DNA from: Streptomyces sp. NRRL S-455
Lineage (GTDB): Bacteria; Actinomycetota; Actinomycetes; Streptomycetales; Streptomycetaceae
DNA length: 64,000 nt
Direction of reading: 5' to 3'
Assembly (NCBI RefSeq): GCF_000717875.1
Contig: NZ_JOCT01000011.1
Coordinates: forward strand, 124,001-188,000
Shown: piece by piece, positions 22,530 to 33,759 of the stretch
Layout of the letters: every line of letters starts with the position of its first letter
Position numbering within the stretch: the stretch's first letter is position 1
The notes under the pieces: generated by a model
Told to the model about the DNA's origin: nothing
Database searches by the model: none
The model's input: only the letters and a program-made list of their open reading frames with translations
Program-made: the position numbers and the translations under genes

Positions 22530-23264
22530 ATGGCAGCCATCGCAGCGCACACGATCACGGCGGACGCGGTCTCGGCGGGTCCGGCCACGGACGCCGGGCC
22601 GCAGTGGGTCAATGACCTCATGGACGCGCTGGGCGCGCCGGGTGCCGGTCTCGCCATCGCCCTGGAGAACCTGTTTCCGCCCCTGCCCAGCGAGGTGATC
22701 CTGCCTCTCGCCGGGTTCGCCGCGAGCAGCGGGCGGATGAGCCTGCTCGCCGTCCTGCTGTGGACGACGGCCGGCTCGGTGATCGGCGCGCTCGCGTTGT
22801 ACGGGGTCGGGGCGCTGCTCGGCCGCGACCGGACGGTGGCGATAGCGGGCCGGCTGCCGCTGGTGAAGGTCTCGGACATCGAGAAGACCGAGGCGTGGTT
22901 CCTGAAGCACGGCACCAAGGCCGTGTTCTTCGGCCGGATGATCCCGATCTTCCGCAGTCTGATCTCCGTGCCGGCGGGTGTCGAGCGGATGCGGCTGCCG
23001 GTCTTCCTGGGCCTGACCACGCTCGGCAGCGCGATCTGGAACACGGTGTTCGTCCTCGCGGGCTACCTGCTCGGCGCGAAATGGCACCAGGTCACGGACA
23101 TCGTCTCCACCTACTCGAAGGTGGTCCTCGTCGTGGCGGCCTTCGCGGTGCTGGTCTTCATCGCGCTACGGCTACTACGACGCCCCGAAAGGGGCGCGGG
23201 GAACTGCGCGACCAGCCACGACGAAGCCGCACACGCAGGACCACCGCACCTCCCGAACTCCTAG
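22530..23264 (+). CDS. DedA-family membrane protein
   Basis: This 244-residue protein is DedA-type. The first re-entrant motif is ENLFPPLPSEVILPLAGF and the second is FGRMIPIFRSLISVPAGV (F-x-R-x-x-P-x-x-R). There are about five membrane spans. Such proteins help recycle undecaprenyl phosphate or scramble lipids. The last 30 or so residues (RRPERGAGNCATSHDEAAHAG) are encoded by the dispersed Streptomyces repeat, so the natural tail may have been replaced. The ATG at 22530 is preferred because TAGCGT ends 7 bases before it; a GTG at 22521 is in frame. Its stop overlaps that of the HAD gene. Confidence 0.85.
   Translation: MAAIAAHTITADAVSAGPATDAGPQWVNDLMDALGAPGAGLAIALENLFPPLPSEVILPLAGFAASSGRMSLLAVLLWTTAGSVIGALALYGVGALLGRDRTVAIAGRLPLVKVSDIEKTEAWFLKHGTKAVFFGRMIPIFRSLISVPAGVERMRLPVFLGLTTLGSAIWNTVFVLAGYLLGAKWHQVTDIVSTYSKVVLVVAAFAVLVFIALRLLRRPERGAGNCATSHDEAAHAGPPHLPNS
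23184..23240. repeat. Dispersed repeat copy in the DedA C-terminus
   Basis: The sequence GCCCCGAAAGGGGCGCGGGG, then AACTGCGCGACCAGCCACGA, is a typical copy of the short dispersed repeat seen again at 25.8, 43.6 and 52.3 kb. Its GCCCC...GGGGC arms can form a hairpin. It encodes the last residues of the DedA protein. Confidence 0.75.
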
Positions 23265-24094
23265 GCGAACCGGCCGAATCCAGCGCCGGCGCCCCGCACC
23301 GCCCCCAGGCACTCCCGCAGGATCCGCTCCCCGGCGAGGACGCCCCGCTCGGGAAGCGCCTTGATCGCGGGTGCCGTCCAACCGCTGTCGGCCAACTCCC
23401 CGTGGCCCGGCCGCCAGCCCTGGTCCGCCGCGAGGAGCAGATCGGCGTCGAGCAGTGAGTCGCCCGCGGCGAGGGTGAGATCGGCACCGGTCCGCCGGGC
23501 GACCTCACGCAGCGCCGCGCTCTTGGTGAGCGGCTTGGGCACCGCGTAGATCTTGCGGCCTTGCAGAGACACGGTCCAGCCCCGGTTCTCCGCCCACACC
23601 GCGAGTTCCTTCACCCAGTCCTCCGGCAGGAGTTCGCGCTCGACGACAAGGTAGGCGAAGAGGTCGTCGGCGACGCGGTGCTTGCGCACCCAGACCGGGT
23701 CGGCCGCCCGCAGCAGGTGCTCCCGCACCTCGTCGAGGGGCACGCACTGGTCGGCCAGTCGTGCGGTGACCTGTGCGTGCCAGTCGGGGTCGGAGACACC
23801 GTCCACCAGCAGATGGCCACCGTTGGCACAGATCGCGTACGTGGGCGCGGGGCCCGGCAGGTTGATGCGCAGGTACTGCCTGCGCGTCCGGGTCGTCGTC
23901 GGCACGAACACGGCCGCGTCGCCCAGGTCGGTGAGGAGCTGGGCCGCCGTCTCCGTCATGTACGACAGCGGCTTGCTCTCGTGCACCTCGACACACAGCA
24001 GCCGGGGCGCCCGTGCGTCCGGCATGGTCAGTGCCAGAGCCGCGGCGGAGTAGATCAGTGTGCGGTCGAGGTCGCTGGCGACGAGTGCGGGCAT
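23261..24094 (-). CDS. Ter-module HAD phosphatase
   Basis: This 277-residue HAD protein is Cof-like (C2-type cap). Motif I is ASDLDRTLIYS with Asp8 and Asp10, motif II is VPTTTRTRRQY, the cap lies after it, motif III Lys is in PKPLTKSAAL, and motif IV is LAAGDSLLDADLL. It is the third gene of the C-C lyase / phosphoribosyltransferase / HAD operon. In the published prediction for Ter-linked operons, this HAD enzyme dephosphorylates a nucleoside-like intermediate; here that is inference from position. The ATG overlaps the upstream TGA by one base (TGATG). Its stop and the DedA stop share CTAG. Confidence 0.85.
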   Translation of the reverse strand: MPALVASDLDRTLIYSAAALALTMPDARAPRLLCVEVHESKPLSYMTETAAQLLTDLGDAAVFVPTTTRTRRQYLRINLPGPAPTYAICANGGHLLVDGVSDPDWHAQVTARLADQCVPLDEVREHLLRAADPVWVRKHRVADDLFAYLVVERELLPEDWVKELAVWAENRGWTVSLQGRKIYAVPKPLTKSAALREVARRTGADLTLAAGDSLLDADLLLAADQGWRPGHGELADSGWTAPAIKALPERGVLAGERILRECLGAVRGAGAGFGRFA

Positions 24095-26760
24095 CAGAGG
24101 GTCACCGCCTTGCCGTCGGCGCCGGTCGCACCCCGGGTGTACCTGGGGTGGATGAGGCCCACGCAGGTGTAGGGCAGTCCGTCGACCTCCTCGACGGGCA
24201 CGCCGCGTTGCTCGGCCAGCAGGCGGACATGGTCGAGGTCGCTGCCCGCCCCGGCGCGCGCCAGGACCTTCCAGGGCACGCGGCGCAGCATCACCCGGGT
24301 GGTCTCGCCGACGCCGGGCTTGACGAGGTTCACGTCGTGGATGCCGTACTCCTCGCTGATGCGCTCGACGGCGGCCCAGCCCTCCCAGGTGGGCGAGCGG
24401 TCCGCGGCGAGCAGTTCCTTGGCCTGGGCGCAGGCCGCTTCCGTGATCTCCGGGAAGCGGGCGGACACGGCGTCCAGGAAGGTCACCGAGACATCGGTGC
24501 CGGCGAGTTCGCGGTAGAACTTGGCGCCGTGGAAGTCGTGCGGGCCGACGAGGTCCGCCCGCAGCACGGTCCGCGAGATCAGCCCGGACACGGTCGAGTT
24601 GAGGCAGGCGGAGGGGATGAGGAAGTCCTCGCGGGTGCCGTAGGTCCGTACGCAGGAGCCCGGGTCGGCCAGGACGGCGATCTCGGGGTTGAAACCGGTG
24701 ATGCCGTCGGACTTCTCGAACTCCTCCAGGGCCTGGGCGAGTTCGCGGGTGATGGCGCCCTTGCCGGTCCAGCCGTCGACGAAGACGACGTCCCGGGGGT
24801 CGTGGTGCCGGGCGAGCCAGCGCAGCGCGTTGGCGTCGATGCCCCGGCCGCGGACGATGGACACCGCGTAGTGCGGCAGGTCGAGGCCGTGCCGGTGCTG
24901 GGCCCAGCGGCGCATGAGGATGCCGACGGGTGTGCCCGCGCGGGCCAGGGAGACCAGGACCGGGCGGGGGGACCGTTCGGTGAGGACCGTTTCGGTGACC
25001 ACCCCGGTCGCCTGGGCGATGCGGGCCGCCGACTCCTCCAGCGCGGTGTGGAACAGCTCCTGGTACTGCTCGCTCGGCTGGTACTCCACGGGCAGCGACT
25101 CCGCGTAGTGCGCGCCGCCGCTCTGGATCGCCTCCTCGCGCTCCTCGGTCGGCGCCTCCAGCGTCACGTCCGAGAGGTCCTGGAGCAGCCAGCCGACCTC
25201 CTCGGGCGCGTACGACGAGAAGGCGGGGCCGCGGAGGGGCTCGGGCAACATGGAGGGCCTTTCGGGGGCGGGCGAGGGCTCTGGGGCGTACGACGGTACG
25301 ACGGCGAGGAGGACCTGCGGGGTGTGTGCGGCGAGCTGGGCCAGCAGGCCGTCGGGCGCGTGCAGCCGCGGCGTGTCCGCGACCGAGTCGACGACGGCGA
25401 CGACGGCGTCGAAGCCGGCGCCCGCGACGTTGTAGGCGTACCGCTCGCCGGGGCCGTCGGCCGGGTCGTCGTGCGCGGGGAAGACCAGGCGGGTGCGTAT
25501 CGCGTACCCGGGGTCGTCGACGGCGAGGACCGGCGAGCGGGTCGTGGTCGAGTAGCGGACCTCGGCGTCGGCGATCCGCTCCAGCTCGCAGGCGAGTCTG
25601 AGCGGGGCGTACATCAGCTCCTCGAAGCCGAGTATGTGCACGCGGCGCGCGTTGGCGGGCAGCGCCTGGGCGATCCGTGCCGCCATGCCGGGCAGGGCCG
25701 CTTCCAGGCGCTCCCGATGGGAGGGTGTGAAACCGTGCCGACCACCGTCGGGCAGCCCGGCGGGCCAGCGCAGGTCTATGCGGTAGTCGTCCGGCCGCGG
25801 GCCGGTGGGGGTTGTTCGCGCAGTTCCCCGCGCCCCTGAGAGGGGCATGCCGGCAACGCCCTCAAGGGGCGCGGGGCCGTGTCTATATGCGGCTCCGCCG
25901 CGGGGCGCGACCGGCCACGACGGCGCCGCAGCCGACGTACGACCTGCCCCGGCACTCTCCGACCCGGCACTCTCGGCCTCGTACCGCGCCACCAGCTCCC
26001 GCCCCTTCTCCAGCACCCCCTCGGGCAGCCGCACGGTCCCCGAAGCCGCCGCCACGAGATCCACCCGCGCGCCGATCTCCCGCGCGAACTCCTCCAGCCG
26101 CCCCGCGTCGGCGGCTGACCGCATGTCCACCAACGCGACCACGACGTACCGCCGCCGCGGATACCGCTGATGGAGATCCCGGACGGTGTTCAGCACTGTG
26201 TTCCCGGTGGAGAACTCGTCGTCGACCAGCACCAGCGGCCCGTCGCCGGCCAGCAGCGCGGGATCCTCCGGCAGCAGCAGGTGCGAGGTGGCGTGCGAGT
26301 GGGACTCCTCGAAGCCGCCGGCCGGTGCGAGACCGGCGACGGGGCGGCGGGTGGAGTGCAGGTAGGGGGCGAGGCCCAGCCCGTCGGCGACGGAGTGGCC
26401 GAGGCCGGTCGCGGTCTCCGCGTAGCCGAGCACGACCGCCCGGCGGGCCTCGTCGGGGCCCAGCAGCTCACGTACCCGGCGGCCGAGCTCGACCCCGTGG
26501 CCGTAGACGACGGACGGCGACTGCGGCACGTGCTTGCCCAGCACGTTCGACACGAGCAGGTGGGCCCGCTTGGGGTTGCGGCGCAGCGCCAGCCCCAGCA
26601 GGCCGGTCAGCCGGTCGCCGCCGACGAGCTCGACGCCGAGCCGCTCGGCGACCCAGCTGCCGGACCAGACGCCGTCCGTCCCGTCGGCCGTACCGTCCGT
26701 GCCGGTCCGCGCCCCGTGGCGCCCCGCGTCGCGCACCTCGTGGTGCACCCCCTCGTTCAC
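24094..26760 (-). CDS. Phosphoribosyltransferase-TRSP-StiP-PELOTA fusion protein
   Basis: The protein has 888 residues from the GTG at 26760 (behind GGAGAAGG); an ATG 12 bases upstream adds four. Domain order: PRTase_2 (about 20-280; PRPP loop VLVDDEFSTGNTVLNT); a linker of about 40 residues encoded by the dispersed repeat; TRSP (about 325-500; RRVHILGFEELMYAPLRLACE); a second PRTase_1/StiP domain (about 510-800; VSLARAGTPVGILMRRW, VFVDGWTGKGAI); and a C-terminal PELOTA RNA-binding domain (VNLVKPGVGETTRVMLRRVP). The two halves are usually separate proteins in Ter-linked operons. The role is predicted: building a nucleoside-like metabolite. The gap to the lyase gene is 38 bases; the HAD gene follows. 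Confidence 0.83.
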   Translation of the reverse strand: MNEGVHHEVRDAGRHGARTGTDGTADGTDGVWSGSWVAERLGVELVGGDRLTGLLGLALRRNPKRAHLLVSNVLGKHVPQSPSVVYGHGVELGRRVRELLGPDEARRAVVLGYAETATGLGHSVADGLGLAPYLHSTRRPVAGLAPAGGFEESHSHATSHLLLPEDPALLAGDGPLVLVDDEFSTGNTVLNTVRDLHQRYPRRRYVVVALVDMRSAADAGRLEEFAREIGARVDLVAAASGTVRLPEGVLEKGRELVARYEAESAGSESAGAGRTSAAAPSWPVAPRGGAAYRHGPAPLEGVAGMPLSGARGTARTTPTGPRPDDYRIDLRWPAGLPDGGRHGFTPSHRERLEAALPGMAARIAQALPANARRVHILGFEELMYAPLRLACELERIADAEVRYSTTTRSPVLAVDDPGYAIRTRLVFPAHDDPADGPGERYAYNVAGAGFDAVVAVVDSVADTPRLHAPDGLLAQLAAHTPQVLLAVVPSYAPEPSPAPERPSMLPEPLRGPAFSSYAPEEVGWLLQDLSDVTLEAPTEEREEAIQSGGAHYAESLPVEYQPSEQYQELFHTALEESAARIAQATGVVTETVLTERSPRPVLVSLARAGTPVGILMRRWAQHRHGLDLPHYAVSIVRGRGIDANALRWLARHHDPRDVVFVDGWTGKGAITRELAQALEEFEKSDGITGFNPEIAVLADPGSCVRTYGTREDFLIPSACLNSTVSGLISRTVLRADLVGPHDFHGAKFYRELAGTDVSVTFLDAVSARFPEITEAACAQAKELLAADRSPTWEGWAAVERISEEYGIHDVNLVKPGVGETTRVMLRRVPWKVLARAGAGSDLDHVRLLAEQRGVPVEEVDGLPYTCVGLIHPRYTRGATGADGKAVTL
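25799..25921. repeat. Dispersed repeat inside the phosphoribosyltransferase gene
   Basis: Two repeat modules lie in the coding region: one with TTGTTCGCGCAGTTCCCCGC then GCCCCTGAGAGGGGC, the other with GGGGCGCGGGGCCGTG, ATATGCGGCTCCGCCGC and GCGACCGGCCACGACGG. The reading frame stays open through both. They encode the linker between the PRTase_2 and TRSP domains, residues about 285-325. Confidence 0.75.
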
Positions 26761-26798
26761 TGCCTTCTCCATGATTGTTTGCGTCGGATGCCGTGCGT

Positions 26799-27965
26799 TC
26801 AGTGGGGCAGGCCGGCCGCGAGTAGCTCCACGAAGCCGATGTCCTCGCCCGCCACGCCGAAGACCTCGGCACGCAGCAGGGTCCGCTCGGCCCAGGCCCG
26901 ATGCGGCTTCACCTCGTTCATCTTGTTCGTGTACGCCGACCTCAGCACGCCCCCGCCGCCGCGCTCGGGGCGCAGTATGTCCTGGGCGTCCGAGAACTCC
27001 TCGTGGCTGACGACCGACAGGGCGTGCACCGGCAGCACGTGCGAGGGGTGGATGCAGGTCTTGCCCAGCAGTCCGTTGGCCTGGTCCAGGGAGATCTCCC
27101 TGAGCAGGCCGTCCATGGCGTGCTCAATCAGCTTCTCGCGCAGTTCCGCGGCCTGCACCTCAAGGAAGGGGCTCTGCCGGAGCAGCGGCTTGAACATGCG
27201 CTCCTGCACCCGGAAGTACTCCCACACCGGCCCGGTCACGGTGAAGCCGGTGCCGTCGGCGCGGCCCAGCATGTTCACCACGTCGGCGATCACGGAGGCG
27301 ACGATCTGCACGTCGTACGCCGTCATGTCGGGGCCTCTGCGCAGCCCGTAGGACGAGCAGAAGTCCGTCACGCCGAGGCGCAGGGCGAGGACGCGGTCGC
27401 GGTACTTGTCGACGGCACGGGATATGCCTTCCAGGGTGTCCACGCGGGACTCCCGGTAGAGCAGCTCCGGCGACTCCAGCACCGGCATGGCGAAAAGACG
27501 ACGGCCGCTTTCGGCCTCGGCGGTCCCCAGCGCCTCGAGGAAGGGGATGCCGCGTTCCTCCGTGAACTTGGGCAGGACGAATCCGGACAGCAGGCGGGCG
27601 GCGGGCCCGAGGCGGCGCACGAGGTCGGGGATCTGCTCGGGGACACGGACCCGGATGAACAGCAGCGGCACGTCGGCGTCCGGAAGGCCGGCGAGGGCCG
27701 TGAGCTGGCCGACGAGGTTCTCCTCGCCGGGACCGACTTCCGCGTCGTCGATCGAGTCCTCCAGGCACAGCACCATCGAGACCACGCCGCGCCCGGCCTG
27801 CTTGAGGATGTCGTCGGCGAGGCGCGGCCGGGTGGCCGGGCTGTAGAGGGTCGCGCCGAGGGCCGCCGAGAGCAGCCGGGCCGGAGAGTCCGGCGTGAAC
27901 ACGCACGGTTCGCGGTGAAAGAGACGCTTCCGCACCTCAGGGGCGATGTGCCCGAAATGACGCAT
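26799..27965 (-). CDS. HpcH/HpaI-type C-C bond lyase of the Ter module
   Basis: This 388-residue protein has the CitE/HpcH-HpaI aldolase-like TIM barrel. Seen are an early ATLYSPATRPRLADDIL (phosphate/substrate loop), CLEDSIDDAEV (likely metal-binding Glu-Asp), LFIRVRVPEQIPDLV, a barrel strand LSGFVLPKF, and ALRLGVTDFCSSYGLRRG. The C-terminal TCIHPSHVLPVHAL is the family's end motif. It belongs to the C-C_Bond_Lyase group found with TerD and PELOTA-PRTase genes. It is probably a lyase or aldolase in making the metabolite predicted for these operons (inference). It is the first gene of the operon, divergent from terD at 28194. Confidence 0.85.
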   Translation of the reverse strand: MRHFGHIAPEVRKRLFHREPCVFTPDSPARLLSAALGATLYSPATRPRLADDILKQAGRGVVSMVLCLEDSIDDAEVGPGEENLVGQLTALAGLPDADVPLLFIRVRVPEQIPDLVRRLGPAARLLSGFVLPKFTEERGIPFLEALGTAEAESGRRLFAMPVLESPELLYRESRVDTLEGISRAVDKYRDRVLALRLGVTDFCSSYGLRRGPDMTAYDVQIVASVIADVVNMLGRADGTGFTVTGPVWEYFRVQERMFKPLLRQSPFLEVQAAELREKLIEHAMDGLLREISLDQANGLLGKTCIHPSHVLPVHALSVVSHEEFSDAQDILRPERGGGGVLRSAYTNKMNEVKPHRAWAERTLLRAEVFGVAGEDIGFVELLAAGLPH

Positions 27966-28023
27966 GGAACTCCCCCGTGGTGGTTATGCGGCCTGCGAAT
28001 CGTCGAAAGGTGGCCGGTAATAG

Positions 28024-28050
28024 TACGTAGAAGGCCATGTCAGAGGTTCC
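28024..28050 (-). promoter_or_regulatory. ECF-type promoter-like sequence upstream of the Ter operon
   Basis: On the minus strand GGAAC (28050-28046) and GTA (28026-28024) are 19 bases apart. This is near the SigR consensus, GGAAT-N18/19-GTT, with one mismatch in each half. It lies about 60 bases before the C-C lyase ATG (27965). The 228-base gap 27966-28193 also holds the terD promoter. A weak match, but it suits a stress operon. Confidence 0.25.
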
Positions 28051-28193
28051 CATCAGGCATGAATTTCAGGTAACGCGGGCAAGCACAGCCAGACCCGGCC
28101 ATGACGACGGTAGTCCGCGACGGCCGTCTGCGCCGCTCGTGACGCCGCGGCCCCGCGTTGTCGTGAGCAGGACCGAGAAGGCAGGATGACCGT

Positions 28194-29105
28194 ATGACGC
28201 ACGCGATGCTGAAGGGGTCGAACGTCCCGCTCGAGGCCGCCACGGTGCGCGCCGTGCTGCGCTGGACACCCGGGCAGGGGGTTCCGGACGTCGACGCCTC
28301 CGCGCTGCTCCTCGGTGCCGACGGACGTGTGCGCTCCGACGAGGACTTCGTCTTCTACAATCAGCCCCGGCACCCCTCCGGGATGGTGTGGCGGCTCGGC
28401 AAGAAGCGGGTCGCCGAGGGCCTGACCGACACGATCCAGACGGACCTCACCGGTGTCGAGTCGGGAGTCAGCCGGATTCTGCTGGTCGCATCGGCGGACG
28501 GCGTCCCCTTCGACCGCGTGCGGGCGCTGCGCATTCTGCTGTACGACGCCACGGGCAGCGACACGGAGGCGCTGGCGTACTTCGACGTCAAGCCGGAGAC
28601 GGGCGAGGAGACCGCGCTGATCTGCGGCGAGCTGTACCGGCGTGGGGAAGGCTGGAAGTTCCGGGCGCTGGGCGAGGGCTATGTGAACGGCCTGCAGGGA
28701 CTGGCGACCGACTACGGCATCTCGGTGGACGAGTCGGAGGCGGCGGAGGAGCCGCCGACCACGACCGTTCCCTCACCCCCGACCACGGCCGGGACCACCC
28801 AGCAGCCCGCGGCCCCGGCCCCGCCCGCCCCCGAGGTGTCCCGGCCGCTGCCGCCGGAGCAGCCGACCGCGGTGCCCACGCAGCCCGCCTACGGCTATCC
28901 GCCGCAGCAGCCCGCGACGACCCAGCCGGCGTACGGCTATCCGCAGCCGGCCGGCCAGTCCGCCTACGGCTACCCCCAGGCACCGGCCACGGCGGGTGCC
29001 ACGGGGGCGCAGTCGGGATACGGCTATCCGCAGCCCGTCGCCGCCGCGGCCCCCGACCCCGACTTCCGCCTGCCCCCGCAGGGCCCGCAGTTCATCGGAC
29101 GGTGA
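28194..29105 (+). CDS. TerD-family protein with YGYP-repeat tail
   Basis: The protein has 303 residues. The TerD domain (about 1-180) begins [13 protein letters not shown] and contains [22 protein letters not shown], and the TerD end [21 protein letters not shown]. The acidic calcium loop present in the two canonical paralogues ([13 protein letters not shown]) is missing; [14 protein letters not shown] stands in its place. So one Ca2+ site may be lost. The tail (about 190-303) is Pro/Thr-rich with four YGYP repeats, probably disordered. It is divergent from the phosphoribosyltransferase operon and is likely a sensor or scaffold in the Ter stress system. Confidence 0.83.
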
Positions 29106-29110
29106 GAGGC

Positions 29111-29144
29111 GGGGGGCGGAGAAGCCTCAGTCTCCGCCCTCCCC
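29111..29144. terminator. Terminator hairpin between convergent genes
   Basis: GGGGGGCGGAGA pairs with TCTCCGCCCTCCCC, allowing one bulge, around an 8-base loop. It follows the TerD-like stop at 29105 and includes the stop of the GNAT gene in its loop. It can serve both strands. Confidence 0.6.
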
Positions 29145-29684
29145 GGCCTGCCGGAGATCCTTCTCCAGCAGAGTGAAGGACTTGGGTGCCCCGCCCGGCT
29201 GCGGCTTGCCCTCCTTGTGGCCCACGACCCGGTAACCGGCGTCCCGGTAGTAGGCATTGAGCTGTGCGTTGCCGGCCAGGCAGTCAAGGCGTACACGGGT
29301 CCGCCCCGCGGCGGCCACCCGGCGCTCCGCGACTTTCAGCAGCCGCCGTCCCGTGCCGGGCGCGACGCTGCTCCGGTCCACCATGAGCCGGTGCACGTAT
29401 CCGGCCACGGGCGGCTGCGGGCCCCAGGCGGCCTCGTCCTGCCACCACAGTTCCCAGGCGCCGGCGACGCGCCCGCCGGACGCCGCGATCCAGACCTCCC
29501 CATGTGCCATGACGCGGCGGAAGTGGTCTTCGTCCAGCTCCCCCGGCCGCCACTGCCCGGTGACGCCGCGGGCCAGCATCCAGCGGGCTGCGTCGTCACG
29601 GAGGCGGACGAGGGTGGCCAGATCGGCCTCGGTGGCCGGGCGGACGCGTAGATCATTCACCCGGGGATCCTGTAAATCATTCAT
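29127..29684 (-). CDS. GNAT family N-acetyltransferase
   Basis: This protein has 185 residues from the ATG at 29684. The GNAT core has RVRPATEADLATLVRLRDDA, a substrate strand WELWWQDEA, the acetyl-CoA motif VDRSSVAPGTGRRLLKVAER (x-G-x-G-R-x-L), and the C-terminal LNAYYRDAGYRVVGHKEG. The substrate is unknown. The 5' end is a near-tandem duplication of about 24 bases, giving a second start (GTG at 29660) with an equivalent upstream sequence. It is inserted between TerD-like and TerA-like genes and need not belong to the Ter system. Confidence 0.8.
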   Translation of the reverse strand: MNDLQDPRVNDLRVRPATEADLATLVRLRDDAARWMLARGVTGQWRPGELDEDHFRRVMAHGEVWIAASGGRVAGAWELWWQDEAAWGPQPPVAGYVHRLMVDRSSVAPGTGRRLLKVAERRVAAAGRTRVRLDCLAGNAQLNAYYRDAGYRVVGHKEGKPQPGGAPKSFTLLEKDLRQAGEGGD

Positions 29685-29697
29685 GCGGGGATCCTCA
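29650..29697 (-). repeat. Tandem duplication of the GNAT start region
   Basis: Minus-strand units AGGATCCCCGCATGAATGAT and AGGATCCCCGGGTGAATGAT lie 24 bases apart. Each holds a start codon (ATG, GTG) and the same AGGATCC upstream. Either unit could initiate translation. Confidence 0.75.
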
Positions 29698-29744
29698 CAC
29701 ACACCTCCGCCCCTCCCGGGCGAAGCCCGGGCCTGCCCGGTCCC

Positions 29745-30479
29745 TCAGCGGTCGACCTTGGTCTTGTAACCCCGGCCCCACTGCAGCCCCCACCCGTACA
29801 GCCGGTCCAGCTCCGCCTGGAACCCGTAGACGAACTTCGCCTCACGGCGCACGATGATCTCGTTCTTGACCTTCTCGATCATGACGACGGCGCAGGAGCG
29901 GGCCTGTGGCTGGCGTTCGTCGAGGTGGATCTCGATGCGCGGGCCGCTGCTCGGGTACAGCGTGACACTGGCGTGCGTGCGGTCAAAGGCGGGTGTCTGG
30001 TCGTAGATGTAGACGAAGACCAGGAGCCGCTTGATGTGCTCGCGGTGGTCGAGGTTGATGTACATCGTCTCGCCGGAACCGGAGCCGAAGCGGTCGTCGC
30101 CGCTGAGCTTGACGTACGGCGGGGCGTTGACGTCGCCGTAGTAGCCGCCGAGGGGCTGGACGACGCCCTTGGTGCCGTCCTGGAGTTCGTAGAGACAGCC
30201 CAGGTCGAGGTCGACGTTGACCATGGACTGGCTGTGGCCGACGACCTCCGGCGGTTTCAGGGCCCGCAAGGGGTGCCGCAGCAGGCTCTCGCGCTGCGCG
30301 CCGCCGATGTCGGAGGTGCGCATCCGCCAGCTCAGGTTGACGCGCAGATGGCCGGTGGCCGCGCCCTGCCTGGTGAGTGATATCTGCGCGCGCCGCTTGG
30401 TCAGTTCGATCGCGTTGGTTGCCGCGTGACCCGAGTCGAACTGCACATCGCCGCGCCGGAGTCCGTCGAACAGGCCCAT
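29745..30479 (-). CDS. TerA-like protein of the Ter stress system
   Basis: The protein has 244 residues. It starts MGLFDGLRRGDVQFDSGHA and has a beta-rich TerD-like fold: ISLTRQGAATGHLRVNLSW, YELQDGTKGVVQPLGGYYG, then KLSGDDRFGSGSGETMYIN. The end is KFVYGFQAELDRLYGWGLQW. The pattern fits TerA-type (TerD-superfamily) proteins of tellurite/stress clusters, which act with TerD proteins. The acidic DDRF-GSGSGE segment could bind Ca2+. The ATG at 30479 follows GGGGGCGGA. A strong terminator separates it from the DUF475 gene upstream, so it has its own promoter. Confidence 0.75.
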   Translation of the reverse strand: MGLFDGLRRGDVQFDSGHAATNAIELTKRRAQISLTRQGAATGHLRVNLSWRMRTSDIGGAQRESLLRHPLRALKPPEVVGHSQSMVNVDLDLGCLYELQDGTKGVVQPLGGYYGDVNAPPYVKLSGDDRFGSGSGETMYINLDHREHIKRLLVFVYIYDQTPAFDRTHASVTLYPSSGPRIEIHLDERQPQARSCAVVMIEKVKNEIIVRREAKFVYGFQAELDRLYGWGLQWGRGYKTKVDR

Positions 30480-30543
30480 TCCGCCCCCACGTTCACTTGG
30501 AGACCGCGGGTCATCGTCGTACCCACGGCCCTTGACGACCGAC

Positions 30544-30579
30544 GGGGCGGCCCCGAGGAGTCACCTCGGTGGCCGCCCC
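30544..30579 (-). terminator. Terminator of the DUF475 gene
   Basis: GGGGCGGCC-CCGAGG and CCTCGG-t-GGCCGCCCC form a 15-bp stem, with one bulged base, around AGTCA. It is just past the DUF475 stop (30609) on the minus strand and before the TerA-like gene. Confidence 0.85.
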
Positions 30580-30608
30580 GCACAGAGCGTTCCTCACCCG
30601 GAGGGGTG

Positions 30609-31754
30609 TCACACCCCGGACGAGACCTCAGTCTTCTCGTCCGAGCCGGCTTTTCCCCCGGCCGCCGCGATGGCGCGGTTGCGGCGCACGGAGGACCAGA
30701 ACGAGGCACCGATCAGGACGACGCCGATCATGCCGGTGATGATCTCGTTGATCTCGTACTGGATGGTGACGAGCAGGATCGCGGCGAGCGCGCCGATGGC
30801 GTAGTGCGCACCGTGCTCCAGGTAGACGTACTCGTCGAGGGTGCCCTGGCGGACCAGGTAGACCGTCAGCGACCGGACGTACATGGCGCCGATGCCGAGG
30901 CCGAGGGCCATCAGCACGATGTCGTTGGTGATGGCGAAGGCGCCGATCACGCCGTCGAAGGAGAAGGAGGCGTCCAGGACCTCGAGGTAGAGGAACATGA
31001 AGAACGCGGCTTTGCCGGCCAGCTTGACCGCCGACTTGGGCTTGCCCTCGCGCGCGGCCTTCTCCTCGGCCTCGTGCTCGCGTTCCTCCTCCTCTTCGAG
31101 CTTGTCCTCGAAGTAGCCGGAGAGGCCGCCGACGATCATGTAGGTGATCAGACCGGCGATACCGGAGAGCAGGACGGTCTCCGCCTTGTCGGCATGGGTG
31201 CCGCCGTGCTGGTGGGCGTTGGCGCCGAAGGTGATCGAGGAGATCAGCAGGACGATGAGGGCGATGCAGACCGACAGCATGTCGATCTTGCCGAGCTTGG
31301 CCAGCGGGCGCTCCAGCCAGCCGAGCCACTTGATGTCCCGGTCCTCGAAGATGAAGTCGAGGAAGATCATCAGCAGGAACATGCCACCGAAGGCGGCGAT
31401 CGACGGGTGGGCGTCGGTCACCAGCTCCTGGTAGCGGTCCTTGTCCGTGAGGGCGAGGTCGACGGCCTCGATCGGGCCCAGCTGGGCACTGATCGCGACG
31501 ATCACGACAGGGAAGACCAGCCGCATGCCGAAGACGGCGATCAGGATGCCGATGGTGAGGAAGATCTTCTGCCAGAAGGCATTCATCTTCTTCAGGATCC
31601 CGGCGTTGACCACCGCGTTGTCGAAGGACAGCGAGATCTCGAGGATGGAGAGGATCGCGACGACGCCGAACGCGGTCCATCCTCCGTAGAGAACCGCTGC
31701 GACCAGGCCGAGCGCGGTGACCGCGAACGACCACCCGAAGGTTTTCAGAACCAC
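30609..31754 (-). CDS. DUF475 (TerC-like) integral membrane protein
   Basis: The protein has 381 residues and about nine membrane helices. LEISLSFDNAVVNAGILK and LEVLDASFSFDGVIGAFAIT are the paired E/D-x-SFDN/D motifs of TerC/LysE-like proteins; their acidic residues could hold a divalent metal. DUF475 proteins (YkvI/YjbE type) occur with TerD genes. A central cytoplasmic loop is rich in Glu/Lys (KLEEEEEREHEAEEKAAR). The likely role is as the membrane partner of TerD proteins in metal handling. The GTG at 31754 has a weak ribosome site. Confidence 0.85.
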   Translation of the reverse strand: MVLKTFGWSFAVTALGLVAAVLYGGWTAFGVVAILSILEISLSFDNAVVNAGILKKMNAFWQKIFLTIGILIAVFGMRLVFPVVIVAISAQLGPIEAVDLALTDKDRYQELVTDAHPSIAAFGGMFLLMIFLDFIFEDRDIKWLGWLERPLAKLGKIDMLSVCIALIVLLISSITFGANAHQHGGTHADKAETVLLSGIAGLITYMIVGGLSGYFEDKLEEEEEREHEAEEKAAREGKPKSAVKLAGKAAFFMFLYLEVLDASFSFDGVIGAFAITNDIVLMALGLGIGAMYVRSLTVYLVRQGTLDEYVYLEHGAHYAIGALAAILLVTIQYEINEIITGMIGVVLIGASFWSSVRRNRAIAAAGGKAGSDEKTEVSSGV

Positions 31755-31879
31755 TGGCTACCCAATCGTGTGTGTACGGGGCTCCCCCGCGCCGTACCCG
31801 GCTTTACGAACTTTTGAAGCCGAAGTCTAGTGGGGCCCGCTCCGCCGCCCAGAGGGGCCCGCATTTTGCTCATATCGCG

Positions 31880-32455
31880 TTATGAGACGTTGACCCCGAA
31901 GTCCAGTGCGATGCCACGCAGACCCGACGCGTACCCCTGCCCCACGGCCCTGAACTTCCACTCGCCCTGGTGACGGTAGACCTCACCGAAGATCATCGCG
32001 GTCTCCGTGGAGGCGTCCTCGCTGAGGTCGTAGCGGGCGAGTTCCTGGCCGTCGGCCTGGTTCACGACGCGGATGAACGCGTTGCTGACCTGGCCGAAGG
32101 TCTGGCCGCGTTCGTCGGCCAGGTGAATGGAGACCGGGAAGACGATCTTGTCGCACCGGGGCGGCACCTTCGAGAGGTCGATCAGGAGCGACTCGTCGTC
32201 GCCGTCGCCCTCGCCGGTGAGGTTGTCACCGGTGTGCTCGACCGATCCGTCCGGGCTCTTGAGCTGGTTGTAGAAGACGAACCAGTCGTCCCCGAGCACG
32301 CGCCCGCCACCGCACATCAGGGCGCTGGCGTCGAGGTCGAAGGGCGCTCCGGTGGTGGAGCGCGCGTCCCAGCCGAGCCCGATCATGACCTGAGTGAGGT
32401 TCGGTGCGGCCTTGGACAGGGAGACGTTGCCCCCTTTGGCGAGCGTGACACCCAT
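31880..32455 (-). CDS. terD: TerD family protein
   Basis: The protein has 191 residues, the full TerD length. It starts [19 protein letters not shown] and contains [29 protein letters not shown], the acidic calcium loop [47 protein letters not shown], and the end [25 protein letters not shown]. The Asp-rich loops bind Ca2+ in characterised TerD proteins. It lies 122 bases from the second copy (32578-33153), with the same orientation; the two are about 70% identical, so recent duplication is likely. Role: cytoplasmic stress/tellurite-resistance scaffold. Confidence 0.92.
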
Positions 32456-32577
32456 GCTGCTGTCCCTCCCCGGATGGCATTACTGAGGTGGTCCTGCACG
32501 TCCGGCGCCGCACGTAAACCGTGCAGCGCCGGACGGGAAGAACCTGGGGCCCGTGTCGCCAGGGGCCGTCAGGCGGC

Positions 32578-33153
32578 TCAGACGTTCACACCGAAGTCCT
32601 GCGCGATGCCGCGCAGGCCCGAGGCGTAGCCCTGGCCGATGGCGCGGAACTTCCACTCCGCGCCGTGCCGGTACAGCTCACCGAAGACCATGGCGGTCTC
32701 GGTGGAGGCGTCCTCGCTCAGGTCGTAACGGGCGATCTCGGCGCCACCGGCCTGGTTCACGACGCGGATGAACGCGTTGCGCACCTGGCCGAAGGACTGC
32801 TGGCGGGTCTCGGCGTCGTAGATCGAGACAGGAAAGACGATCTTCTCCACGTCGGCCGGGACGGTGGCGAGATTGACCTTGATCTGCTCGTCGTCGCCCT
32901 CGCCCTCACCGGTGAGGTTGTCGCCGGTGTGCTCGACGGAGCCGTCCGGCGTCTTGAGGTTGTTGAAGAAGATGAAGTGCTGGTCGTTTCCGACCTTGCC
33001 GGAGCTGTTCAGCAGCAGCGCGCTGGCGTCCAGGTCGAAGTCGGTGCCGGTCGTGGTGCGGACGTCCCACCCCAGACCGATGATGACCGCGGTGAGGCCC
33101 GGCGCCTCCTTGGTCAGCGATACGTTGCCGCCCTTGCTGAGGCTGACTCCCAC
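32578..33153 (-). CDS. terD: TerD family protein
   Basis: This 191-residue paralogue of the gene at 31880 starts [20 protein letters not shown] and has [19 protein letters not shown], the acidic loop [40 protein letters not shown], and ends [17 protein letters not shown]. All the features of a Ca2+-binding TerD are kept. The ATG at 33153 lies behind a good purine-rich site (GGACTC is weak; no stronger site was seen). It is probably the first gene of the two-gene terD operon. Confidence 0.92.
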
Positions 33154-33300: not shown

Positions 33301-33759
33301 TCACAGGGAGTCGAGCGCCTTCACGTAGTCGTTCAGGTCGCGGGCGTCCGGCAGGCCGTTGACGACGGTCCAGCGCACGACGCCCCCCTTGTCGATCACG
33401 AAGGTGCCGCGCACCGCGCAGCCCTTGTCCTCGTCGAAGACGCCGTAGGCCCGGGAGACGTTGCCGTGCGGCCAGAAGTCGGACAGCAGCGGGTACTCCA
33501 GGCCCTCCTGCTCGGCGAAGACGCGCAGGGTGTGGATGGAGTCGTTGGAGACGGCGAGCAGCTGGGTGTCGCGGTCGGCGAACTGCGGCAGGTTGTCGCG
33601 CAGCTCGCACAGCTCGCCGGTGCACACGCCGGTGAAGGCGAAGGGGTAGAAGAGCAGCACCACGTTCTTGGAACCGCGGAAGTCGGACAGCTTCACGCTC
33701 GCGCCGTGGTTGTCCTTGAGCTCGAAGTCGGGGGCCTTCTCGCCGACCTGGATCGCCAT
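33301..33759 (-). CDS. ahpE: AhpE-like peroxiredoxin
   Basis: This 152-residue thioredoxin-fold peroxidase starts [20 protein letters not shown]. The peroxidatic Cys46 is in [19 protein letters not shown], with a second Cys51 five residues on. AhpE of Mycobacterium tuberculosis is 1-Cys at this place, as I recall it, so Cys51 may act as resolving Cys, as in PrxQ/BCP. The signature [16 protein letters not shown] and [15 protein letters not shown] match AhpE closely. It reduces hydroperoxides. It is next to the DUF3052 gene and aceE, as in mycobacteria. Confidence 0.9.

Follow-up and report, generated by a model that had tools for sequence, protein, structure and literature searches.

A Ter-linked biosynthetic core with a four-domain fusion protein in Streptomyces and its coupling to TerD genes

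Introduction

A Ter-linked module expected to make a nucleoside-like compound was predicted by Anantharaman, Iyer and Aravind in 2012, as recounted in passages of PMC8115787 and PMC7824862. The module brings together a C-C bond lyase (PF15617), the domain pairs PF15609-PF12500 and PF11202-PF15608 and a phosphatase of the haloacid dehalogenase (HAD) class, and it is linked to TerD and to a TerC-type protein; ATP-grasp and TerB are both often present, and neither is treated as defining. In the E. coli plasmid Ter copy, the genes stand in the order ATP-grasp, phosphoribosyltransferase (PRTase), HAD, PF11202-PELOTA and lyase. Here, we analysed a 64-kb stretch of DNA (contig C11:124001-188000, hereafter the window) from a 120-contig Streptomyces assembly of 8.23 Mb, in which a run of three core genes, encoding the lyase, a fusion protein of 892 amino acids and a HAD phosphatase, faces a TerD gene.

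We consider it moderately probable that this module makes a predicted nucleotide-derived stress signal, which would be sensed by TerD proteins, by way of PRTase and HAD chemistry. We read it in this manner because of its domains, the gene order kept in 32 of 36 loci, the presence of TerD in all 43 genomes carrying the core and of DUF475 in 42 of them, the predicted folds, and the position of the HAD gene in 17 of 17 further loci. A module of this kind is already known from the 2012 prediction; new here are the result on ATP-grasp, the strength of the coupling to TerD, the interpretation of PF11202 from its modelled structure and the link of the HAD phosphatase to solved structures.

The core run and its Ter neighbours

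Gene identities in the window were assigned by Pfam search, with matches far above the cut-off. The first gene of the core run encodes the lyase of 388 amino acids (26799-27965, minus strand; PF15617, 401.6 bits) and is separated by 26 nt from the fusion gene (24094-26772, minus strand), whose stop codon overlaps the start of the third gene, for the HAD phosphatase of 277 amino acids (23261-24094, minus strand), in the sequence TGATG. This tightly packed run faces the gene of a TerD protein of 303 amino acids with a Pro/Tyr/Gly-rich tail (28194-29105, plus strand; PF02342, 149.4 bits). The fusion protein carries four Pfam domains over the cut-off in a single frame, namely PRTase_2 (PF15609; residues 58-245, 26038-26601, 225.3 bits), TRSP (PF12500; residues 342-479, 25336-25749, 134.6 bits), PF11202, named 'StiP' (residues 519-769, 24466-25218, 357.8 bits) and PELOTA_1 (PF15608; residues 796-875, 24148-24387, 118.1 bits), all on the minus strand. 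Its close relatives with a stated organism are from Streptomyces, and the same four domains are found in those listed. Compared with the known module, the run in the window starts with the lyase and ends with the HAD phosphatase, PRTase_2-TRSP and PF11202-PELOTA are fused, and ATP-grasp and TerB lie outside the cluster.

Behind the TerD gene, the minus strand encodes a TerA-like protein of 244 amino acids (29745-30479), a TerC-like membrane protein of 381 amino acids with the DUF475 domain (30609-31754; PF04332, 469.0 bits; PF03741, TerC, 74.3 bits) and two canonical TerD proteins of 191 amino acids each (31880-32455, PF02342 276.4 bits, PDB 3ibz at E 1.8e-89; and 32578-33153, PF02342 296.0 bits). 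Two proteins, the HAD phosphatase and the TerA-like protein, have no Pfam family over the cut-off. The latter matches the TerD family at 17.9 bits, below the cut-off, shares a PHROG with the TerD protein, and aligns to the TerD alignment in hhalign at E 1.7e-5 (probability 79%), which places it as the fourth TerD-fold protein beside the three found by PF02342; the former matches PDB 6cj0/6d3v (phmmer, E 1.6e-10).

A first-pass annotation made from the letters alone had described much of this arrangement. Its minus-strand operon facing a TerD gene, its four TerD-fold proteins, its DUF475 membrane protein and its naming of the HAD phosphatase all held, and searches with the six families PF15609, PF12500, PF11202, PF15608, PF15617 and PF02342 all matched genes of the locus. 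Membership in the Ter-linked biosynthetic set, which it had also proposed, is borne out by the domain identities and layout and by the co-occurrence with TerD described below. Its term 'phosphoribosyltransferase-PELOTA fusion' was right as to the two domains named and understates a protein that also contains TRSP and PF11202.

Spread of the core and coupling to TerD

To describe the distribution of the core, we drew a single sample of 197 genomes from the class and took as carriers those with PF11202 over the cut-off. There were 43 of these, including 16 of the 16 genomes of the window's genus (the window counted), which leaves 154 others, among them one genome (G120) with PF11202 at 20.3 bits, below the cut-off. 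A strong lyase match (at least 367 bits) is present in 42 of the 43 carriers and in none of the 154 others; in the single exception (G069), the contig ends just past PRTase_2. TerD at E<=1e-20 was found in 43/43 carriers versus 6/154 others, and DUF475 in 42/43 versus 13/154. The Fisher values for both co-occurrences are tiny, and because kinship remains in these overall counts, we place more weight on three mixed genera (g13, g39 and g78), in which genomes carrying the core have canonical TerD, whereas in those lacking it TerD at E<=1e-20 is absent or limited to one weaker copy.

Neighbourhoods were read for 36 of the 43 carriers, the remaining seven being the window itself and six genomes of the same genus. 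The order lyase-PRTase_2-TRSP-PF11202-PELOTA-HAD is collinear and close in 32 of the 36 loci; the exceptions are two loci at contig ends (L094 and L096), one without a HAD match (L101) and one with the HAD gene 3.4 kb away (L110). PRTase_2-TRSP and PF11202-PELOTA lie in one open frame in 17 of the 36 loci, as in the window, and are separate in 19; their natural fusion argues that the two halves act together. Among 72,556 plasmid records, 2567 matched a PF11202-PELOTA protein, and in 2561 the match spanned 80% or more of that protein. A search of viral contigs with the Streptomyces lyase, which would reveal close relatives only, found no phage copy of the lyase. Near the Ter core lie two further groups of related genes that, common to the loci of f4 and f28 and comprising 7 and 5 members (L087:3400-4964), look AIM24-like when inspected by eye.

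ATP-grasp and TerB

The first-pass annotation had seen neither ATP-grasp nor TerB in the window and had suggested a different activating step or genes located elsewhere. Indeed, no gene for either was found within the 64 kb, and the genome-wide search for both returned matches on other parts of the genome: an ATPgrasp_Ter gene (PF15632) at C22:5978-7090 with 123.8 bits, and TerB matches on C21 (93.4 bits) and at C11:380557 (28.2 bits), outside the window. The ATP-grasp gene is divergent from an adjoining metallophosphoesterase gene (pair at L013:4856-7090).

As the PF15632 model is unspecific (of 14 control genomes, it matched 13 at E<=1e-3 and 2 at E<=1e-10), we counted as strong only ATP-grasp matches of at least 100 bits and excluded lower ones. 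A strong copy is present in 13/43 carriers versus 3/154 others, with weaker matches of 72 and 75 bits in two carriers (G072 and G142); at E<=1e-10, ATP-grasp is matched in 15 of the 43 carriers and 15 of the 154 others, and 28 carriers have none. Within the window's genus, a full-length ATP-grasp occurs in 10 of 16 genomes, away from the core, and a metallophosphoesterase gene adjoins it in 7 of the 10. ATP-grasp shares a contig with the core in one genome (G074), adjoins TerD, DUF475 and a TerA-like gene in another (G069), and lies in the fetched stretch in 8 of 17 loci from Gammaproteobacteria and the Burkholderia group, some of those stretches being shortened by contig ends. A cluster without ATP-grasp is therefore no peculiarity of this locus: the enzyme looks linked to the core yet optional, and a replacement activating step need not be postulated.

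Domains of the fusion protein

PRTase_2 was modelled as a phosphoribosyltransferase fold, and its DDE..TG motif is kept in 117/117 aligned sequences; the window's copy has the loop VDDEFSTG (within 26197-26226), which resembles that of enzymes binding phosphoribosyl pyrophosphate (PRPP). PF11202 was modelled (predicted local distance difference test score 90.5) as a PyrR-like PRTase fold, and PRTases lead its fold list, with PyrR on top, among the best 50 matches listed. By fold, PF11202 is likely a phosphoribosyltransferase. The canonical PRPP loop has 13 residues, two of them acidic, a pattern that PF11202 fails, having instead the variant DGW.GKGA, which is kept in 121/121 aligned sequences (VDGWTGKGAI at 24751-24780 in the window). 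Set against PyrR and the purine PRTases, PF11202 thus differs in its shorter loop (DGWTGKGA) and in an invariant Cys motif, and is 14% identical to 4p86 across the aligned region.

That Cys motif bears on the name of the family. Members with NCBI-sourced names are called 'cysteine protease StiP family' and those with JGI-sourced names 'Phosphoribosyl transferase (PRTase)/PELOTA RNA binding domain'; the StiP protease name stands on 38 of the 40 plasmid matches listed (from 2567 records in all), H5 having no annotation and H40 another name. Were the name correct, PF11202 would be a cysteine protease and the cluster would act by proteolysis under stress. In keeping with this, the Cys in SACLN.T is invariant in 121/121 sequences, as are His 130, 153 and 244 (numbering of the alignment's first row), the Pfam and RefSeq-style product names agree, and a 2025 survey of gut enzymes counts StiP among cysteine proteases (PMC12111023). 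However, PRTases head the fold list, and no protease is among the best 50 matches listed, although a protease fold can still apply; one paper prints PF11202 as PRTase_1, in line with the JGI names, and a passage of another lists PRTase_1 near PELOTA_1, without an accession. Our literature search on PF11202 found no report testing either protease or phosphoribosyltransferase activity. Proteolysis is, in our judgement, very improbable, and the 'cysteine protease' label probably points experimenters the wrong way.

TRSP is likely a degenerate PRTase-like repeat, and in the predicted model its order of helices and strands matches that of PRTase_2. Sequence comparisons, tried as proof of this relationship, were only suggestive. 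With hhalign, TRSP and PRTase align at E 0.03 (probability 1.7%) over a short out-of-register stretch, and with an alignment of greater diversity the match was weak (E 0.053, probability 1.0%) but had the first helix and strand in register. In a home-made profile test, 18 of 400 shuffles reached the score, again out of register; such plain profile tests are insensitive, because they also missed the relationship between PRTase_2 and PF11202 (178 of 400 shuffles). An alignment that takes secondary structure into account did better against PRTase_2, where 0 of 60 within-class shuffles reached the score of TRSP, but not against PF11202, where 17 of 60 did; the PELOTA controls gave 54 and 9 of 60.

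PELOTA, at the end of PF11202, was modelled as an L7Ae/L30e-like fold of the RNA-binding type and matches structures of the YbxF/YlxQ/L30e type, one of them in complex with riboswitch RNA; PELOTA_1 had previously been modelled on L7Ae, according to a passage of PMC5571608. These matches would suit a role for PF11202-PELOTA in modifying or regulating a structured RNA, with a PyrR-like fold held by a tether of the kink-turn-binding type and with something other than a free nucleoside as the end product. PyrR, the head of the fold list, is itself an RNA-binding regulator with a PRTase fold. Against such a role, the conserved leader block upstream of the lyase gene has no RNA fold of its own, since 185 and 153 of 200 column shuffles (two strands) fold equally well or better, Rfam returned nothing over the gathering scores at 15000-40000, and the lyase and the HAD phosphatase suit small-molecule chemistry better; we hold RNA modification or regulation to be distinctly unlikely. 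An RNA leader bound by PELOTA was likewise rejected for now, there being no conserved fold and no Rfam match. More speculative, and in our view improbable, is a scheme in which the 892-amino-acid protein, with three PRTase-fold domains (catalytic, degenerate and PyrR-like) and a kink-turn-type RNA-binding end, would load a lyase-made group via ribose 5-phosphate onto structured RNA at the ribosome; in that case TerD proteins would read a mark on RNA, or a nucleotide set free from it, as the Ter stress signal, in place of a freely synthesised nucleoside.

The HAD phosphatase

The HAD phosphatase of the window keeps the motifs DLDRT and GDSLLD, which we take to be those of its class, and matches the HAD protein of the E. 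coli plasmid Ter cluster at E 4e-10. That protein in turn matches, over nearly its full length (residues 2-253 of 257, E 2.7e-43), PDB 6d3v/6cj0, which are deposited, like 6d3w, as 'Trehalose phosphatase'. When species genomes were searched with the aligned part of the 6cj0/6d3v chain, 17 loci from Gammaproteobacteria and the Burkholderia group were found (L138-L154; 70-100% identity, one at 100%, in Pseudomonas parakoreensis). In all 17, the HAD gene has PRTase_2-TRSP on one side and PF11202-PELOTA on the other; the lyase was observed in 15 of them and genes of the TerD family in 14. Judged by this neighbourhood, 6cj0/6d3v and their relatives belong to the Ter core, and the structure of one enzyme of this pathway is thus already solved, filed under the name of trehalose phosphatase.

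The deposited name invites another interpretation, in which the pathway handles a sugar phosphate and the HAD substrate would be trehalose 6-phosphate, a similar disaccharide, or a phosphoribosyl-sugar phosphate formed by the two transferases. A 2018 report in FASEB J is said to concern trehalose-6-phosphate phosphatases of Pseudomonas aeruginosa, and trehalose 6-phosphate hydrolysis was reportedly measured for such proteins; our literature search on 6cj0, 6d3v and 6d3w found no paper, and a wider one on trehalose phosphatase gave nothing of use. HAD-class phosphatases often accept many substrates, which lessens the weight of the name, and, unlike what the name implies, the gene neighbourhood of this family is the Ter core, with two PRTase-type genes flanking the HAD gene in every one of the 17 loci. 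We therefore regard a sugar-phosphate pathway as unlikely.

Regulation

In the gap that separates the lyase gene from the divergently transcribed TerD gene (27966-28193), an alignment of 10 genomes of the same genus revealed a conserved block at 28010-28074, composed of GTGGCCGGTAATAGTACGTA ... GTTCCC ... CATGAA ... GGTAAC; the sequence GGTAATAGTACGTA in this gap is identical in 9 of the 10. The first part of the block occurs as a single copy in the whole genome at <=3 mismatches. Read toward the lyase, GGGAAC-N18-CGTA is present in 8 of the 10 genomes, with a 14-base spacing in one (L084) and no match in another (L082). Sites of this look are used by extracytoplasmic function (ECF) sigma factors, and we predict an ECF-promoter-like site directed toward the lyase gene from its sequence pattern. 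Counts of sigma-70 promoters and terminators were at chance level.

Judging from its upstream site, the terD gene at 32578-33153 is likely the counterpart of S. coelicolor SCO2368, which we take to be tdd8. A sigma-E site has been reported upstream of SCO2368 (PMC6767563), and a sequence of this type is kept at 33438-33463 (minus strand), upstream of the window's gene, with 2 mismatches to the masked SCO2368 pattern, which 0 of 100 shuffles match. Because it lies inside a coding gene, of the AhpC/TSA family, its conservation alone is no proof of use. SCO2368 is reported for calcium homeostasis, and the passages concerned give no link to the biosynthetic core. For another S. coelicolor gene, the conserved hypothetical sco2364, a conserved antisense RNA has been reported (PMC3765725).

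Other genes of the window and further TerD copies

A GNAT acetyltransferase gene (29127-29702, minus strand), which the first-pass annotation did not mention, lies inside the Ter stretch. The flanks resemble ordinary chromosome, with genes for a penicillin-binding protein, a membrane protein of the VTT type, a protein of the AhpC/TSA family, DUF3052 and pyruvate dehydrogenase E1. The genome has 12 TerD-domain matches including the window's three, the rest being on contigs C24, C4, C5, C16 and C1, some of them in open frames of 473-758 amino acids.

Proposed pathway and implications

In the pathway that we propose, the lyase would supply or trim a small acid-bearing precursor, which PRTase_2 with TRSP, and then PF11202, would join to ribose 5-phosphate from PRPP, and the HAD enzyme would take off the phosphate. 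PELOTA may tether the second transferase to RNA or to the ribosome, and ATP-grasp may serve as an optional finishing step. The product would be bound by the TerD-fold proteins, which would work together with DUF475 at the membrane. In this view, a phosphoribosyl-derived signal made under envelope or metal stress would be sensed by TerD-fold proteins near DUF475; a passage of PMC7824862 that deals with jumbo phages puts forward this logic for Ter systems at large.

Several points weigh against this pathway. We infer the product, the substrates, the order of the steps and the sensing. Likeness of fold is no demonstration of function; of the Foldseek matches of the PF11202 model, only 2 pass E 0.001, and two capsule enzymes that are not PRTases tie with PyrR in Z; judged by its sequence, the domain may be non-catalytic, as its loop is shorter and lacks the second acidic residue. 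The only experimental name on the HAD family is trehalose phosphatase, not nucleotidase. The co-occurrence counts are uncorrected for kinship, and 16 of the 43 carriers belong to one genus. Moreover, 14 of the 36 loci (L101-L114) have no TerD match inside the fetched stretch, one of them (L110) having a TerA-like match at its edge; canonical TerD lies on the same contig, 12.5-18.6 kb from PF11202 (start to start), in 12 of these 14 and on other contigs in 2.

Ter genes are carried on thousands of plasmids. With 30 of the 43 actinomycete carriers lacking a strong ATP-grasp match, the minimum enzyme set is smaller than assumed. If the prediction of a metabolite is true, Streptomyces would be a safe and tractable host in which to find the compound.

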